Part shown: positions 50,383 through 56,934 of the stretch, piece after piece
How the letters are laid out: the number at the start of each line of letters is the position of its first letter
Position numbering within the stretch: the stretch's first letter is position 1
NCBI GenBank assembly: GCA_040221055.1
Contig: JAVJVN010000020.1
Span: 1 to 64,000 of the forward strand
Source: Rhodothermales bacterium
GTDB lineage: Bacteria > Bacteroidota > Rhodothermia > Rhodothermales > UBA10348
Direction of reading: 5' to 3'
DNA length: 64,000 bases
Position numbers and translations under genes: made by a program
The notes under the pieces: model-generated
Database searches by the model: none
Told to the model about the DNA's origin: nothing
Seen by the model: the letters and a program-made list of their open reading frames with translations, nothing else

Positions 50383-52572
50383 GTGCATCCATCCTACCTG
50401 GCCACCGTCCGACTCCTGACCCTGACCCTGTTGATTGTCCTGTCGTCCGGAGCGGCCGAGGCCCGCCAGCAGGACGCACAACGGGTGGACCTCCTTCCTC
50501 CGACCACCCTGCAGACGACCGTGAACCTGGACCGGATGGGGTTGGGAGAGGGCGCTGAGCAATGGTCCGAGCGTGTGCTGATGGAAAAGTTGTCCGTCCT
50601 CTACGGTCATCAGTCCGATCTTATGGCCGCTATTGCACGTGACGACCGGGACGCCGTCGTGGCTTCGTTGGATCTGGCCATGACGGAGCTGGGCGATCTG
50701 CTGCGACAGGACGGCGTCACCGACAATGACCGTTTTTCCGATGCCTATCGGATGGTCGTGACCGAGTACGAACGATTCTACGGTCCGACGGACACCCTTT
50801 TTGTGGCCTTCGGGGACATTTTCGAACTGCGCCGTGACATGTTCGCGGCCCTGGAACAGACGCAGGATCCCCTGCTGGAGGACGTGGTCCCGTCCGGACT
50901 GCAACCCGTCGGGACGGATGTCCCCATGACCATGAACCGGTTGGTCGAGAATTCCATGGAGTTCCTGTTGCGCGACCGGAAGGAAGTGTTGCAGACCTGG
51001 CTGCGCCGGGCGGATACGTACTTCCCCATGATCGAACAGATTTTCGCGGAGGAAGGTGTGCCGGATGAACTCAAGTACCTGGCCATGATCGAGTCGGGAT
51101 TGAACCCCCGGGCGCGATCCTGGGCGTCTGCCGGTGGCATGTGGCAGTTCATGGCGGCTACCGGTCGGGCCTACGACCTGAACGTGAACGCGTGGGTGGA
51201 CGATCGTGCCGACCCTGAACTTGCCACCCGCGCCGCAGCCCGCCACCTGAAGGATCTGTATCAGATGTATGGACAGGATTGGCAGGTGGCCCTGGCCGGG
51301 TACAACTGTTCCCCCCGTTGCATAAAGCGTGCCCAGCAGCGTGCAAGGAACACCGGAATAAGCAACCCGGACTACTGGGATATCTACCCCTACCTGCCCC
51401 GGGAGACCCGGAACTATGTTCCGATGTTCATTGCCACGTCACTGATTGCGTCCAATCCGACCGCCTTCGGTGTGCCGGTGCCGTCCGAACCGGGCCCCGC
51501 CTATGCCTACCATGTGGTGCCGGTCACCGGAATGCTGTCCCTTGAGGACGTGGCCACCATGGCCGGTACCGACGTCACCACGTTGAAGGCATTGAACCCC
51601 AACCTTCGCAGGGATACCCTGCCCCCTTCGACGGGTGAATTCAACCTGCGACTTCCGCTCGGAACGCGGGACGCCTTCGCAGCGGCCTACGAGGCATTGC
51701 CCCCGTCGGCACGGCGACCCTCGGGCGAATATGTGGTCAAGTCCGGAGACACGTTGAGCGGCATTTCGCAGGACTTCGGCGTATCGGTCTCGCAGATCAT
51801 GCAGAAGAACGGACTCCGATCCACGCGTATCAACATCGGCCAGCGCCTGGTGGTACCCATCGCCGACTACACGACCGACATTTCGACCGTCCAGTTCGCA
51901 GGAACGGCCGCGGATATATCGTATCCACCGCGTCGCATCCAGCCCATCCGATTGGAACAGGAGCAGGCTCCTGCCCTTGCCGGTGCAGGCCCTGTTCCTG
52001 CCGCAACGCCGGTCCGTACGGTCTCCACTACACCCATCGGTGCGGACGGACCGGGAACGGCTTCGGCCACCCCGCCGGCTGAAGTCCGGATTGTCCACGT
52101 GGTCCGCCGCGGCGAGACCCTCAGCGGGCTCGCCACCCGGTACAATGTCCCGCTCGACAACATCCGCGGGTGGAACAGCATGTCCGGGTCACGGATCAAT
52201 GTCGGACAACGGCTGACCATCTATACGGATGGCCGATCGGCTCCGGCAACCACAACGGCGGAATCGAATGAGCCGGTTCAGTACACGGTCAAGCGGGGCG
52301 ACACCCTGAGTCAGATTGCCGAATCGTACGGCGTCGGCGTCTCCCAATTGCGCCAGTGGAACAGCATAAGCGGATCGAACATCCGCATTGGACAGCGCCT
52401 GACGGTGTATCCCGGAACGTCGAGCTCCGTAACGTACACGGTCCAACGCGGTGACACGCTGATCGGAATTGCCGGCAGGCATGGTGTGACGGTCGCCCTG
52501 ATCAAGGACTGGAACAACCTGTCCTCGAACACCATCCGCGTCGGACAGCAGCTCAGGATACTCAGGCAATAA
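50383..52572 (+). CDS. LysM lytic transglycosylase of MltD type
   Basis: 729 aa from a GTG start. Signal peptide ends near AEARQ (~28). Residues ~30-210 are a helical region; ~225-340 the SLT domain, with catalytic Glu237 in MIESGLNP and the following GGMWQFMAATGRAYDL and AGYNCSP. A degenerate LysM-like segment lies near 375-425, then four clear LysM domains at ~448-493, 568-612, 631-675 and 683-727 separated by Thr/Pro/Ala linkers. It cleaves glycan strands in the periplasm. It opens the block leading to the sigma factor, 45 bases before it. Confidence 0.94.
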   Translation: MHPSYLATVRLLTLTLLIVLSSGAAEARQQDAQRVDLLPPTTLQTTVNLDRMGLGEGAEQWSERVLMEKLSVLYGHQSDLMAAIARDDRDAVVASLDLAMTELGDLLRQDGVTDNDRFSDAYRMVVTEYERFYGPTDTLFVAFGDIFELRRDMFAALEQTQDPLLEDVVPSGLQPVGTDVPMTMNRLVENSMEFLLRDRKEVLQTWLRRADTYFPMIEQIFAEEGVPDELKYLAMIESGLNPRARSWASAGGMWQFMAATGRAYDLNVNAWVDDRADPELATRAAARHLKDLYQMYGQDWQVALAGYNCSPRCIKRAQQRARNTGISNPDYWDIYPYLPRETRNYVPMFIATSLIASNPTAFGVPVPSEPGPAYAYHVVPVTGMLSLEDVATMAGTDVTTLKALNPNLRRDTLPPSTGEFNLRLPLGTRDAFAAAYEALPPSARRPSGEYVVKSGDTLSGISQDFGVSVSQIMQKNGLRSTRINIGQRLVVPIADYTTDISTVQFAGTAADISYPPRRIQPIRLEQEQAPALAGAGPVPAATPVRTVSTTPIGADGPGTASATPPAEVRIVHVVRRGETLSGLATRYNVPLDNIRGWNSMSGSRINVGQRLTIYTDGRSAPATTTAESNEPVQYTVKRGDTLSQIAESYGVGVSQLRQWNSISGSNIRIGQRLTVYPGTSSSVTYTVQRGDTLIGIAGRHGVTVALIKDWNNLSSNTIRVGQQLRILRQ

Positions 52573-52617
52573 TCCCGGCAGCGCGTGCGTTGTATCCGGG
52601 AACGGTTCAACAACGAC

Positions 52618-53202
52618 ATGCATCCGACGGACGAGGAGCTTGCTGGCGCATACGCGGAACGGGGTGACGACCACGCGTTCCGGATCCTGGTGGAACGCCA
52701 TCAGGAGAAGGTGTATGGGTACCTGCTGGGGATGGTCCGGGACCGGGCCGTCGCCGACGATCTCTTCCAGGAAACCTTCATCCGCGTGATTGCGGCGCTC
52801 CGGAAAGACCGGGGCTCCTACCATCATCAGGGGCGCTTCCTTGGATGGATCATGCGGATTGCCCGCAATGCGGCGCTGGACCATTTGCGTACCCGCAAGA
52901 AATGGCAGGACGTACCGGACAATGAAGACTTCAGTTGGTGGGACACCCTGCCCGCTGATGACCTCCCCACGGACGACGTGTTGCAGGCCGGCCAGGAAGC
53001 CGATATCCTCATGGCCTGCATAGATCGGTTGCCTCCCGAACAACGGGAAGTGGTCCTGCTCCGGCATGAATCCGACCTGACCTTCCGCGAGATTGCCGCA
53101 CTGACCGACTGTTCCATCAACACGGCCTTGGGCCGCATGCGATACGCCCTGTTGAACCTCAGAAAAATGCTCGAAGTCACCGAATTACCGGTAGGCGCCT
53201 GA
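52618..53202 (+). CDS. ECF-type RNA polymerase sigma factor
   Basis: 194 aa from the ATG at 52618 (a GTG at 52585 is less likely). Region 2: AFRILVERHQEKVYGYLLGMVRDRAVADDLFQETFIRV; region 4: LPPEQREVVLLRHESDLTFREIAALTDCSINTALGRMRYALLNLRKML. One base separates its stop from the anti-sigma candidate. Probably governs this operon; the promoter motif cannot be read from one copy. Confidence 0.95.
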   Translation: MHPTDEELAGAYAERGDDHAFRILVERHQEKVYGYLLGMVRDRAVADDLFQETFIRVIAALRKDRGSYHHQGRFLGWIMRIARNAALDHLRTRKKWQDVPDNEDFSWWDTLPADDLPTDDVLQAGQEADILMACIDRLPPEQREVVLLRHESDLTFREIAALTDCSINTALGRMRYALLNLRKMLEVTELPVGA

Positions 53203-53203
53203 T

Positions 53204-53746
53204 ATGGAAGACCAACGCAAACAGACCCTCCTGCACCTGTACGATGAGCCCCGCGAGGACAGCGACCTGCGCGCGCTGTTGGCCGATGCGTCGGTGCGTG
53301 ACGAGTACCGGACGCTGTCCGAGGTGAAATTCAAGCTCGATCGGCGCCCGGCCGTCCGACCCGATGCCGAGGTCCTGGACCGGATCATGGCCGCGGCCAC
53401 CGCTCCTCCGTCGGCCCAACGTACGGACCGTCCGGCCGTCCACCGGTTCATGCGGCCCCGCCGCCTGTTGTTCTCGGGTCTCGCGGTGGCCGCGGCCCTT
53501 GTACTGGCGGTGGCCCTCGGGTGGTTTTCCACACCGGATCCGGAAACCGTTCCGGGGACCACGCCGCCTGCGCTTGCTGCCGACACCGAGTTGTCGTGGG
53601 ACGATGCGACCCATATCCGCCAAGTCTATCGCCGCATGGATTCCATGCGGCCCCAATCCCCACTCTCATGGGACGAACCCCCGGTCCCACTTGAATCACT
53701 GCCTTCAGGGCGCCCCGGCAATCTGGTGCCGGTGGGTGCCAACTGA
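53204..53746 (+). CDS. Single-pass membrane protein, probable anti-sigma factor
   Basis: 180 aa. Cytoplasmic N-terminal part (~1-85) contains repeated Leu/Asp pattern (LHLYDEPREDSDLRALLADAS) rather than a zinc HxxxCxxC motif; one transmembrane helix at ~90-108; a periplasmic tail with Pro-rich segments. Position straight after the ECF sigma gene and topology argue for anti-sigma, but no anti-sigma domain signature is present, so this is inference. Confidence 0.65.
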   Translation: MEDQRKQTLLHLYDEPREDSDLRALLADASVRDEYRTLSEVKFKLDRRPAVRPDAEVLDRIMAAATAPPSAQRTDRPAVHRFMRPRRLLFSGLAVAAALVLAVALGWFSTPDPETVPGTTPPALAADTELSWDDATHIRQVYRRMDSMRPQSPLSWDEPPVPLESLPSGRPGNLVPVGAN

Positions 53747-53765
53747 TGAAAAGAACGCTACGGTC

Positions 53766-54635
53766 ATGAATACGAGAACCCTGATTCTTCTTGCGATCCT
53801 TCTGCTGGGATCAAGTACGGCCACCCGGGCACAGACCGTGCACAAGGTGTCGTTCGAAAACGGCGTCGTCTATGTTGACGGCAACCGACTGGCACCCAAG
53901 GACTTGCCGGCCTCCCTCGATGCCCGCTCCCTCCGCGGGAATCTGAACTTCTGGAGTGATGAGGATGCCTTGCTTCAAATCCGCGACCACGTGTACCAGG
54001 TGGTGGACGGCAAGCTGCTGGAAGTCAAGGTGGACGAGCAGGAACCCGGCCGGGTCATGGTCTACTTTGCAAATGAGGACAAGGAATTCCCGGTACGCGT
54101 GCTCCGTTCCAACAACGCCGGCGTACTGACGGAACGCAGCAACGACCAATACTCGTTCTACGTCAAAGCCCTGCAGTCCCAGGCCGCTGAGCTGGACAGT
54201 ATCCGTGTCGTCTTCGAGAAGACCACACCGGAAAAGGCAGGTATCATGCGACGGATGGTGGCCGAAGTCGAATCGGCCGCCCGGATTGCTGAAGTCCTTC
54301 CGCAGGCCCAGTACCAGGCCTACCTCCACGAAGTGCAGGACAATGATCGCGAGCTCTACGAACAGCTTCGCCTGGAGCATGCGCTGGAGTCGGAATCCCG
54401 CATGCTTGCCCGACGGATTGTCTCGGCCCGCTCCGAGGCCGATTCGGAGCGACTCCGGAAAGAGCTGCATACCAAATTGAACACGATCTTCGAGCTCAAA
54501 CAGAAAAACCGCCAGCGTGAAATCGAGCAGCTCTCCGCCCAGCTGAGGGATCTCCAGGAGCGTCTGCAGGCCCGTGAGAGCCAGCGGGATGCCCTCATCC
54601 AGCGGCGGATAGAAGAACTCACCGGCAAGCAATAG
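53766..54635 (+). CDS. Secreted protein with C-terminal coiled coil, unknown function
   Basis: 289 aa from the ATG at 53766; signal peptide ends near TRAQ (~23). Residues ~25-150 are beta-rich; ~155-289 are charged helices with strong coiled-coil heptads (KQKNRQREIEQLSAQLRDLQERLQARESQRDALIQRRIEEL). The ending pattern L-x-E-R-x-x-x-R-x-x-x-R-D-x-x-I-x-x-R/K-x-x-E-L recurs at the end of the next gene, so the two are likely paired periplasmic proteins. Follows the anti-sigma candidate by 19 bases. No family name recognised. Confidence 0.72.
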   Translation: MNTRTLILLAILLLGSSTATRAQTVHKVSFENGVVYVDGNRLAPKDLPASLDARSLRGNLNFWSDEDALLQIRDHVYQVVDGKLLEVKVDEQEPGRVMVYFANEDKEFPVRVLRSNNAGVLTERSNDQYSFYVKALQSQAAELDSIRVVFEKTTPEKAGIMRRMVAEVESAARIAEVLPQAQYQAYLHEVQDNDRELYEQLRLEHALESESRMLARRIVSARSEADSERLRKELHTKLNTIFELKQKNRQREIEQLSAQLRDLQERLQARESQRDALIQRRIEELTGKQ

Positions 54636-54702
54636 AAGGCCGCGCACCGGTAGCCACTCATTCCACCCCCAACGCACGTACCTCAACCAAACCCTATACG
54701 TC

Positions 54703-55182
54703 ATGAACGTTCTGAATCGAACAACCGCGTTGGCCCTGATGACCGGTGCATTCCTGCTCATGCTTCCCGCCAGCCATGCCGAGGCCCAGGACAAGGAATC
54801 GTCCGTCCGCGCCTACTCCCTTGTTTCTCCGGGCTTCGAGGCCCATCTCGATATGCTTCGCGATGGCGAATACAAGGCCCGGCTCGAGCCGTTCTTCGGC
54901 CAACTCCACCGCTTCTCCGAAAAGGAAATGCAGTCCCGTCGTCTGGCAGAGCGAATCCGCCAGGCGGATGGGGATACGGCCGAACTCGAGGCGGAACTGG
55001 ATGATCTGCTGGAAGACATCTTCAACGGTAAACTGGAAGCCCAGCGACAACGCGTTGAGGAAATGAAAGAAGAAATCGCACGTCTGGAAGAACGGATTGC
55101 CACCCGTTCCGAAGCCCGTGATGAGATCATCCGGAAACGCAAAAGCGAATTGCTCGGACACCGCGACGTCTACGACTGGTAG
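54703..55182 (+). CDS. Small secreted coiled-coil protein, unknown function
   Basis: 159 aa. Signal peptide ends near AEAQ (~29). Almost all of the mature part is helical and charged, with a coiled coil at ~110-150 (KLEAQRQRVEEMKEEIARLEERIATRSEARDEIIRKRKSELL). The tail resembles the end of the protein encoded at 53766. Ends 46 bases before the amidase start. EnvC-like amidase activators also pair a coiled coil with periplasmic location, but the LytM domain of EnvC is absent here. Confidence 0.72.
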   Translation: MNVLNRTTALALMTGAFLLMLPASHAEAQDKESSVRAYSLVSPGFEAHLDMLRDGEYKARLEPFFGQLHRFSEKEMQSRRLAERIRQADGDTAELEAELDDLLEDIFNGKLEAQRQRVEEMKEEIARLEERIATRSEARDEIIRKRKSELLGHRDVYDW

Positions 55183-55228
55183 GCCGAGCGCGGGAACATC
55201 GCGGCATGGAAGGGTATCCACGTCATCC

Positions 55229-56416
55229 ATGCGCACACCCCGCTCCGCCATATCCTTCCTGATCACGGCCTGGGTCGTCCTGCTGGGTGCAGGCGCGACC
55301 CGGGCCGCTCTCATCACACCCCTTTCCGAAGAGGTGTCCGTCATCGAACGGGTTTCGTTCGCCCTGTCTTCGCGTACCGGACACACCATTGTGCGCATCC
55401 ACACAACCGGAAAAGTCGATGCCTTCAGTGAGGCCCGGTCCGGCGAAACGGGCACATGGTCCATCGTCCTCTTCCGCACCTCCCTTTCTCCGGACAGGCA
55501 GCTCGACGCATCCATCGGGCCGGTTTCGGCGTATCGGCTGGATGAAGCCGATGGACAGGTCGAACTCCGCCTGACCGTCCAGGAAGGCACGGAGGCCCCG
55601 ACCGTTTACCGTGATGGCGCATCGACCGACATCCTTGTGGCCGTTCCTCCCCCCCGACCCGGCATGCCGACGCCCGTGAATACCGAGCAGGCCGCCGGCC
55701 GATGGCGACTGGACACGGTCGTGATCGACGCCGGTCACGGAGGCAAGGATTCGGGAGCCGTTGGACACCGGGGGCTCCGTGAGAAGGACATCGTACTCTC
55801 GGTGGCCAAGAAACTGGGGGCCTACCTGGAGGAATTGCTGGACGTGAACGTGGTGTATACGCGGGAGGACGACACGTTCATTCCATTGCACGAACGGGGG
55901 CGACTGGCGAATGAAGCCGGCGGAAAGTTGTTCATTTCGTTGCACACCAATTCCGCCCGGAGCGCGCAAGCGCACGGTGCGGAAACGTTCTTTGTCGGCC
56001 TGCACAAGACCGAGGCGGCCCGCCAGGTCATGGAAAAGGAAAATGAAGTCATCCAGCTGGAAGACGATCCCACCGTGTACGAAGCCTTTCGTGGGCCGCG
56101 ACTCATCCAGCATACCTTGACACAGAGCGGCTATATCCGGCAGAGCGAAGCCCTGGCCAGCATCATCCAGGGCCAATTCACCGATCGTGTCGGGCGACGG
56201 AACCGGGGTGTGAAGCAAGCCGGGTTCTACGTGCTTTGGAGTGCGTCCATGCCTGCCGTTCTCGTGGAGTTGGGGTTCATCACGAACCCGGATGAAGCCC
56301 GATTCCTTGCTTCCGACGATGGACAGACCTATCTGGCCAGCGCTATCTTCCGGTCGGTCCGCGAATTCAAGGATGCCTACGAACGTGGCCTCCACCTGAC
56401 TCTCTCCAACCCATGA
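55229..56416 (+). CDS. N-acetylmuramoyl-L-alanine amidase (Amidase_3)
   Basis: 395 aa from the ATG at 55229, opening a signal peptide that ends near TRAA (~26). Residues ~35-140 are an AMIN-like beta domain. The catalytic domain (~165-385) shows zinc ligands H170 in IDAGHGGKDSGA, E185 in LREKDI and H239 in SLHTNS, and the catalytic E347 in VELGF. It cuts the bond between muramic acid and the stem peptide, typically in daughter-cell separation. The apt start overlaps its stop by ATGA. Confidence 0.94.
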   Translation: MRTPRSAISFLITAWVVLLGAGATRAALITPLSEEVSVIERVSFALSSRTGHTIVRIHTTGKVDAFSEARSGETGTWSIVLFRTSLSPDRQLDASIGPVSAYRLDEADGQVELRLTVQEGTEAPTVYRDGASTDILVAVPPPRPGMPTPVNTEQAAGRWRLDTVVIDAGHGGKDSGAVGHRGLREKDIVLSVAKKLGAYLEELLDVNVVYTREDDTFIPLHERGRLANEAGGKLFISLHTNSARSAQAHGAETFFVGLHKTEAARQVMEKENEVIQLEDDPTVYEAFRGPRLIQHTLTQSGYIRQSEALASIIQGQFTDRVGRRNRGVKQAGFYVLWSASMPAVLVELGFITNPDEARFLASDDGQTYLASAIFRSVREFKDAYERGLHLTLSNP

Positions 56417-56934
56417 TCACCGAACTTCTCGCTGCCATCCGGAACGTCCCGGATTTCCCGTCACCGGGCATCCAGTTCAAGGATATTACACCCATCCTGG
56501 CCAGGGCCGATCTGGTACGGCAGGCGGTCCATCTTCTGGTTGAACCCTGGAAGGCTGAAAACATCACCAAGGTCATCGGGATTGAGTCCCGGGGGTTCAT
56601 CCTTGGCGCCATGATTGCTGAAGCACTCGATGCGGGCTTCGTTCCGGTCCGGAAAGAAGGCAAGTTGCCGTACACGACCATCAAAGAGACGTATGACCTG
56701 GAATATGGCACGGACACCATCGAAATGCACATCGATGCGCTCTCGGAGGGGGACCGTGTCCTCATCCACGACGACGTCATCGCCACCGGCGGTACCGCTG
56801 CCGCCACCCATCGCCTGGCCGAATTCGCGGAGGCCCGTGTGGTAGGATTTTCGTTCCTGGTGGAACTCACGGCGCTCAATGGGCGATCCAACCTGGACGA
56901 CGCTGTTCCCGTACATGCCCTCCTGCCAGTCTGA
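56413..56934 (+). CDS. apt: Adenine phosphoribosyltransferase
   Basis: 173 aa. Motifs: IRNVPDFPSPGIQFKDITPIL, VIGIESRGFILGAMIAEAL, and the PRPP-binding VLIHDDVIATGGTAAA. Salvages adenine to AMP in the cytoplasm. Translation is coupled to the amidase (ATGA overlap), although the functions are unrelated. Confidence 0.97.
   Translation: MITELLAAIRNVPDFPSPGIQFKDITPILARADLVRQAVHLLVEPWKAENITKVIGIESRGFILGAMIAEALDAGFVPVRKEGKLPYTTIKETYDLEYGTDTIEMHIDALSEGDRVLIHDDVIATGGTAAATHRLAEFAEARVVGFSFLVELTALNGRSNLDDAVPVHALLPV

Follow-up and report, generated by a model that had tools for sequence, protein, structure and literature searches.

The closest described counterparts of the locus considered here are the RpoE-RseA-RseB system of Escherichia coli and the AlgU-MucA-MucB system of Pseudomonas (RpoE, RseA, RseB and DegP are compared as they appear in the part of PMC8103513 used here). 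The locus lies in a 64,000-nucleotide stretch of the genome of a Rhodothermales bacterium (assembly GCA_040221055.1, contig JAVJVN010000020.1, positions 1 to 64,000), referred to below as the window. Like those systems, it combines an extracytoplasmic function (ECF) sigma factor, Sig, with a candidate single-transmembrane (TM) anti-sigma factor, Asf, that has a MucA-like cytoplasmic domain. Secreted partners, the coiled-coil proteins CcE and CcF, are likewise encoded next, the operon is apparently autoregulated, and DegP and BamA are among the putative targets in some genomes. In contrast to the RpoE and AlgU systems, CcE and CcF have no RseB/MucB match in Pfam (a comparison of sequence only), the tail of the operon is often an amidase gene followed by apt, and the promoter-like element is CAATAA-CGTT, where the RpoE-type promoter is GGAACTT-TCTGA.

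Three other arrangements resemble the locus in part. In the metal-sensing CnrH-CnrY-CnrX system of Cupriavidus, a sigma factor, an anti-sigma factor and a periplasmic partner are also encoded together, CnrX being a helical periplasmic sensor. However, the locus yields no metal-sensor Pfam match, and none of the putative targets followed up is a metal gene. The control of AmiA, AmiB and AmiC by EnvC and NlpD likewise involves secreted coiled-coil proteins, and here such proteins are encoded near an amidase, but CcE and CcF have no LytM match and the genome encodes a separate EnvC-like protein. Systems based on the class I anti-sigma domain (ASDI) share the helical N-terminal anti-sigma domain and occur in zinc and non-zinc variants. 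According to the part of PMC7406223 used here, ASDI anti-sigma factors stand beside only 6% of Bacteroidetes ECF sigma factors; by that figure, the order-wide pairing of a sigma factor with an ASDI-type protein would be unusual in the phylum. The literature was searched by title and abstract opening, with broader topics covered only in small part, and within that scope no such system was described and none was named in Rhodothermales.

Given the gene order, the MucA-like domain of Asf and the putative targets, the locus is best read as a sigma-E-type envelope-stress response whose periplasmic partners form a new family and would act on the anti-sigma factor. We give this reading a probability of roughly two in three (0.66). 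The features of the locus, in window coordinates, are as follows.

50383..52572, + strand: MltD-like lytic transglycosylase (SLT and LysM, 5 stretches; Pfam), a neighbour that is probably outside the sigma operon
52567..52591, + strand: putative ECF promoter, CAATAA-N15-CGTT (pattern match); the MltD stop codon lies within its CAATAA
52618..53202, + strand: ECF sigma factor, Sig (Pfam Sigma70_r2 5e-16 and r4_2 6e-12; TIGR02937 5e-29)
53204..53746, + strand: Asf, membrane anti-sigma candidate, 180 amino acids (structure model, MucA match, NF052375 at a sub-threshold 7e-9, conserved tail)
53766..54635, + strand: CcE, secreted, 289 amino acids, candidate periplasmic regulator (order-wide conservation, structure model)
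54703..55182, + strand: CcF, short secreted paralogue of CcE, 159 amino acids, with the common C-terminal coiled-coil (hhalign to the CcE family)
55229..56416, + strand: N-acetylmuramoyl-L-alanine amidase (Amidase_3, PF01520 5e-53), possible operon cargo
56413..56934, + strand: apt, adenine phosphoribosyltransferase, frequent neighbour (PF00156, gene order)

All seven genes from MltD to apt read in the + direction, separated by -4 to 67 nucleotides, and a check of open reading frames (ORFs) and Pfam domains places them where a preliminary description, made from the letters of the window without database searches, had put them. Sig contains regions 2 and 4 only, as ECF sigma factors do (Pfam, NCBIfam), and the ATG at 52618 is its more likely start.

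Of 114 Rhodothermales genomes, 109 have CcE, among them all 77 of high quality. Asf was found in 89 of the 114 with the single window sequence as query, and the CcF query matched in 77, cross-hits to CcE included. CcE occurs in 108 genomes of the order besides the window's own; for gene order, one stretch was taken from each of 80 of them, and these together with the window make 81 loci. Sig is encoded in 78 of these, the remaining three (L068, L095 and L115) being cut by contig ends, and Asf in 77, to which profile matches add L128 and L129. The number of coiled-coil genes ranges from one to three, with two or three in 44 of 81 loci. In the fetched loci, CcE directly follows the anti-sigma gene, and a coiled-coil gene comes after the sigma and anti-sigma genes wherever the contig extends that far. 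The conserved core is the ECF sigma factor, the anti-sigma factor and the coiled-coil protein or proteins; the hydrolases are outside it. The preliminary description had placed all of these genes in one operon, and among relatives the sigma/anti-sigma/coiled-coil order holds, while MltD and the amidase are inconstant. MltD is linked in 19 of 21 fetched loci of the window's own family and in none of the 59 other fetched loci. Since this linkage is confined to the one family and the stop codon of MltD falls within the promoter-like site, MltD was rejected as an operon member and probably lies outside the sigma transcription unit.

The arrangement extends beyond the order. A profile search of 394 genomes of the phylum gave a match in 65, of which 44 are in the order, two in family f16 of the same class, and 19 out of the class. 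Fourteen of these 19 belong to family f26; most of the 19 matches are confined to the C-terminal coiled-coil, and a few of the 19 score weakly. Within f26 the coiled-coil family is matched in 37 of 79 genomes, partly in short pieces only. Stretches were fetched from 17 of the 21 matching genomes outside the order (G219, G329, G404, which is weak, and G434 were left out). A sigma gene lies near the coiled-coil gene in all 17, and in all 15 out-of-class loci, which come from three families (13 from f26, one from f44 and one from f50), a membrane protein is encoded between the two. Four out-of-class anti-sigma proteins were scanned against Pfam; L173 and L185 have a zf-HC2 match (PF13490) that passes the cut-off, and those of L174 and L176 fall short of it. 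Between the sigma and coiled-coil genes of the two f16 loci there is a short ORF that the Asf profile recognizes (5e-6 and 6e-4). The alignment of CcE with the coiled-coil proteins of f26 and f44, taken as one family, covers 99 columns at a probability of 98.6. None of the 17 stretches, which are 8-19 kb long, contains an amidase match.

Asf is a candidate membrane anti-sigma factor of the MucA type, with putative sigma binding. It adjoins Sig and, like class I membrane anti-sigma factors, has a predicted helical anti-sigma-like domain followed by a TM helix. Its structure model (predicted local distance difference test, pLDDT, 76.7; predicted template modelling score, pTM, 0.39) combines a helical domain at the N-terminus with a single membrane helix; the sigma-binding-like domain is at residues 1-49, the TM helix at 86-107 and a conserved periplasmic tail at about 130-180. 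The two best PDB entries for the model are both the cytoplasmic domain of MucA with AlgU (Z 5.6 and 5.4, root-mean-square deviation 2.6 A, 49 residues), while the third-ranked entry has a Z of 2.6; values of Z below 8 can arise by chance. That the top two are both complexes of an anti-sigma factor with its sigma factor is nevertheless hard to ascribe to chance. The preliminary description considered the anti-sigma candidate to lack known motifs. This is correct for Pfam, where no family scores above the cut-off, and no significant match to PDB sequences was obtained, but it does not hold overall, given the structural match to MucA and the match to NCBIfam NF052375 ('anti-sigma factor', 7e-9, below the cut-off). 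The tail after the TM helix is common to the order and combines W-D-D and an amphipathic helix with a WDEPAVPLE-like end. A W-D/E followed by an amphipathic helix occurs in 74 of 77 Asf tails and 14 of 15 out-of-class anti-sigma tails, with averages of 29 and 5.4, respectively, for shuffled tails. In three Asf homologues of the order family f12 (L130, L131 and L132; 438-610 amino acids), the N-terminal anti-sigma-like unit appears by eye to be tandemly repeated.

CcE and CcF carry signal peptides (by eye) and have no Pfam family above the cut-off, so the earlier statement that they belong to no named family stands. Their 'matching tails' proved to be true homology: a comparison of profile with profile (hhalign) aligns a common C-terminal coiled-coil over 87 columns (probability 99.9, E 6e-32). 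The alignments took 79 of 82 CcE-type, 71 of 77 Asf and 42 of 43 CcF-type sequences. The model of CcE (pLDDT 84.5) shows a beta domain and long helices. No significant match of CcE to PDB sequences was found (best E 0.016), and Foldseek returned no match to its fold at E<=0.001. The VIA-align matches were no more than generic ones, helix pairs (up to Z 9.6) and coiled-coils, from which no conclusion on the fold is drawn; a family absent from its list for Asf or CcE is not thereby excluded. For MucB/RseB, LTXXQ (Spy/CpxP), metal-resist/metal-sensor and M23/LytM, no Pfam match to CcE or CcF is listed at E up to 10. Relatives differ in both the length and the sequence of their CcF. The CcF of the window, at 159 amino acids against 227-423 in 42 relatives, is missing most of the region before the coiled-coil. 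In L188 and L189, from f3 genomes, arrays of secreted proteins of about 410 amino acids match the N-terminal domain of CcE, differ in their C-terminal part and are distant from the sigma locus.

The sequence upstream of Sig contains a conserved promoter-like site. Two patterns were used, a relaxed one ([CT]A[AC]TA-N15/16-CGTT) and a strict one (CAATAA-N14/15-CGTT); a CGTT-type -10 element is in line with ECF promoters generally. In the order, the relaxed site is found in 73 of 78 loci (shuffle mean 0.41, maximum 3) and the strict site in 56 of 78 (mean 0.02, maximum 2). All five loci without the relaxed site belong to family f12. The site at 52567-52591 is the only match in the 64 kb of the window, where 0.02 would be expected. 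Outside the order, the strict site precedes the sigma gene in 14 of 17 loci (two of two in f16, 12 of 14 in f26 and f44, and none of one in f50). The Sig operon is thus apparently self-regulated through the CAATAA-CGTT site. Predicted sigma-70 promoters and terminators in the region show no excess over shuffles. In three genomes (L231, L233 and L240) a second ECF sigma gene has the same site upstream, which hints at a cascade or at shared promoter recognition.

Putative targets were sought through the same site. In 114 genomes the strict motif occurs 1063 times, compared with 602 for the reversed control, and in the window's own family 300 times compared with 113. A large regulon was rejected, the excess being only about 4 sites per genome on average. 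The follow-up of strict sites covered 40 fetched stretches, in which the genes behind sites include those for GLPGLI (TIGR01200), HtrA/DegP (TIGR02037) and BamA (TIGR03303). BamA lies behind a site in three genomes (G089, G086 and G035); the G089 and G086 proteins are cut by the end of the stretch and score just below the cut-off, and there was no systematic BamA search. Other genes behind strict sites occur once each, and many sites are inside predicted genes or have no gene downstream. A small single-TM protein of no known family is encoded behind the same promoter-like site in two genera (L229:2048-2413 and L329:1115-1648; 36% identity). HtrA has matches in 113 genomes and GLPGLI in 50, and for each of the two the 30 best loci were examined; L277 and L302 were excluded for having less than 100 nucleotides upstream, leaving 29 upstream regions each. 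The relaxed site occurs in 23 of the 29 GLPGLI regions (shuffles 0.16; strict site in 16) and in 11 of the 29 HtrA/DegP regions (shuffles 0.19; strict site in 10), with none on the opposite strand in either set. The HtrA sites are found in families f1, f6, f8 and f15. In the window's genome there are four strict sites: one at the sigma operon, one upstream of a GLPGLI-family gene, one upstream of the gene for a small membrane protein, and one inside a predicted ORF.

The conserved gene order, the predicted anti-sigma-like fold, the conserved promoter-like site and the other genes that carry it are read from sequence; recognition of the site by Sig, binding of Asf by CcE and CcF, the signal and the mode of Asf inactivation are what we infer. 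Asf (the 53204 protein) would tether Sig to the inner membrane through its MucA/RseA-like cytoplasmic domain. CcE and CcF, once secreted, would act on the periplasmic tail of Asf as sensors or co-inhibitors, in the place of RseB/MucB or CnrX. Envelope damage may then alter their binding, so that the sigma factor is released and transcribes its own operon from CAATAA-N14/15-CGTT. Depending on the species, further targets might be htrA/degP, bamA, the GLPGLI protein and the small membrane protein, and the amidase would be co-induced where it is located in the operon.

Several observations weigh against this envelope-stress reading. The counts of loci are not independent, because of kinship. The binding of CcE and CcF to the anti-sigma factor is putative, and CcE matches none of the known sensors. 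An hhalign comparison of the Asf tail with the out-of-class tails gives only 1.3% probability and shuffles often match the pattern, so a sequence link between the two was dropped and the resemblance is kept as a look-alike. The four strict sites in the window's genome compare with two for the reversed control, the best HtrA match there has no strict site, no BamA lies behind any strict site, and in several genomes the motif shows no excess over its control. Nineteen of the 23 GLPGLI sites come from the window's own family, and 18 of 29 HtrA regions are without a site (all seven f11 loci, all five readable f13 loci and six others). Finally, the window's genome contains 20 matches to sigma-70 region 2; given these and the second ECF gene with the site, CAATAA-CGTT may not be specific to a single sigma factor.

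The preliminary description proposed, by analogy with EnvC, that the coiled-coil proteins may regulate the neighbouring amidase in a new envelope-stress or cell-division module. On this model they would be EnvC-like activators or inhibitors, and the locus would serve cell division or peptidoglycan turnover. CcE is indeed coiled-coil and secreted, and in 54 of 81 loci an amidase gene lies no more than 1.5 kb downstream. The enzyme spans 215 residues against 173 matched positions of the Amidase_3 profile, and such an excess is expected of a regulated AmiA/B/C-type enzyme. An EnvC-type activator would, however, be expected to stay constantly with its amidase. The coiled-coil genes do lie beside one in those 54 loci, but in 21 of 81, where the sequence continues downstream for 3 kb or more, the first 1.5 kb contain no amidase (nine of f3, three of three f8, three of three f14, two of f11, L075, where the amidase is 4.8 kb off, L090, L116 and L136), and a further six are too short to tell. 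Where examined, the genes that follow in loci without a close amidase differ. The 17 loci outside the order keep the sigma, anti-sigma and coiled-coil genes with no amidase match, and CcE and CcF have no LytM/M23 match. The separate EnvC-like protein encoded elsewhere in the genome weakens the proposal further. This protein (L313:1480-2721, - strand) has a coiled-coil and an M23 domain in which, by eye, the usual histidines are missing; its best NCBIfam match is EnvC at 4e-18, below the cut-off, and it is a candidate for the true activator of the amidase. Amidase control by CcE and CcF is not supported, and we consider it improbable. In contrast, the envelope-stress half of the same proposal is supported by the conserved sigma/anti-sigma pair, the apparent autoregulation and the putative targets HtrA/DegP, BamA and GLPGLI.

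CcE and CcF could also be effectors of the response, such as envelope scaffolds or periplasmic chaperones of the Spy kind, which the sigma factor would induce but which would take no part in its control. Their genes are in a putative sigma-driven operon, their copy number varies from one to three, CcF differs in length and sequence, and Spy and CpxP are precedents for stress-induced helical chaperones. However, the position of CcE right after the anti-sigma gene, an arrangement kept outside the class, fits a control role better, and the Pfam matches listed include no LTXXQ domain, which makes the effector role rather unlikely. That the 53204 protein is no anti-sigma factor at all, and the locus a loose cluster of envelope genes, would agree with its lack of a Pfam family above the cut-off and of a significant PDB sequence match, the sub-threshold NCBIfam match and the low pTM. 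It is very hard to square with the fixed position of Asf after the sigma gene, with the two MucA entries that lead the PDB comparison and with zf-HC2 proteins in the same place in out-of-class loci. Because a coiled-coil gene stays after the anti-sigma gene in and outside the order while the amidase varies, the action of CcE and CcF on the anti-sigma factor is the most economical explanation, and regulation of the anti-sigma factor, rather than of the neighbouring amidase, is their most likely role.

It is tempting to go further and regard the coiled-coil proteins as a new class of envelope-stress sensor, a helical hairpin, capped by the beta domain in the order, that would hold the W-D/E amphipathic helix located after the TM helix of the anti-sigma factor and release it on damage. 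The whole circuit, from promoter to sensor, would then predate the split of the classes within the phylum and be the sigma-E equivalent of these bacteria. This extension is tentative, and we lean against it as it stands. What the comparison does bring out is that in the order Rhodothermales, and in members of other classes, one promoter element, a sigma factor, an anti-sigma factor and unnamed secreted partners have stayed together. A sigma-E-like stress circuit thereby becomes testable in cultured Rhodothermales, and an unnamed protein family joins the candidate periplasmic regulators of anti-sigma factors.

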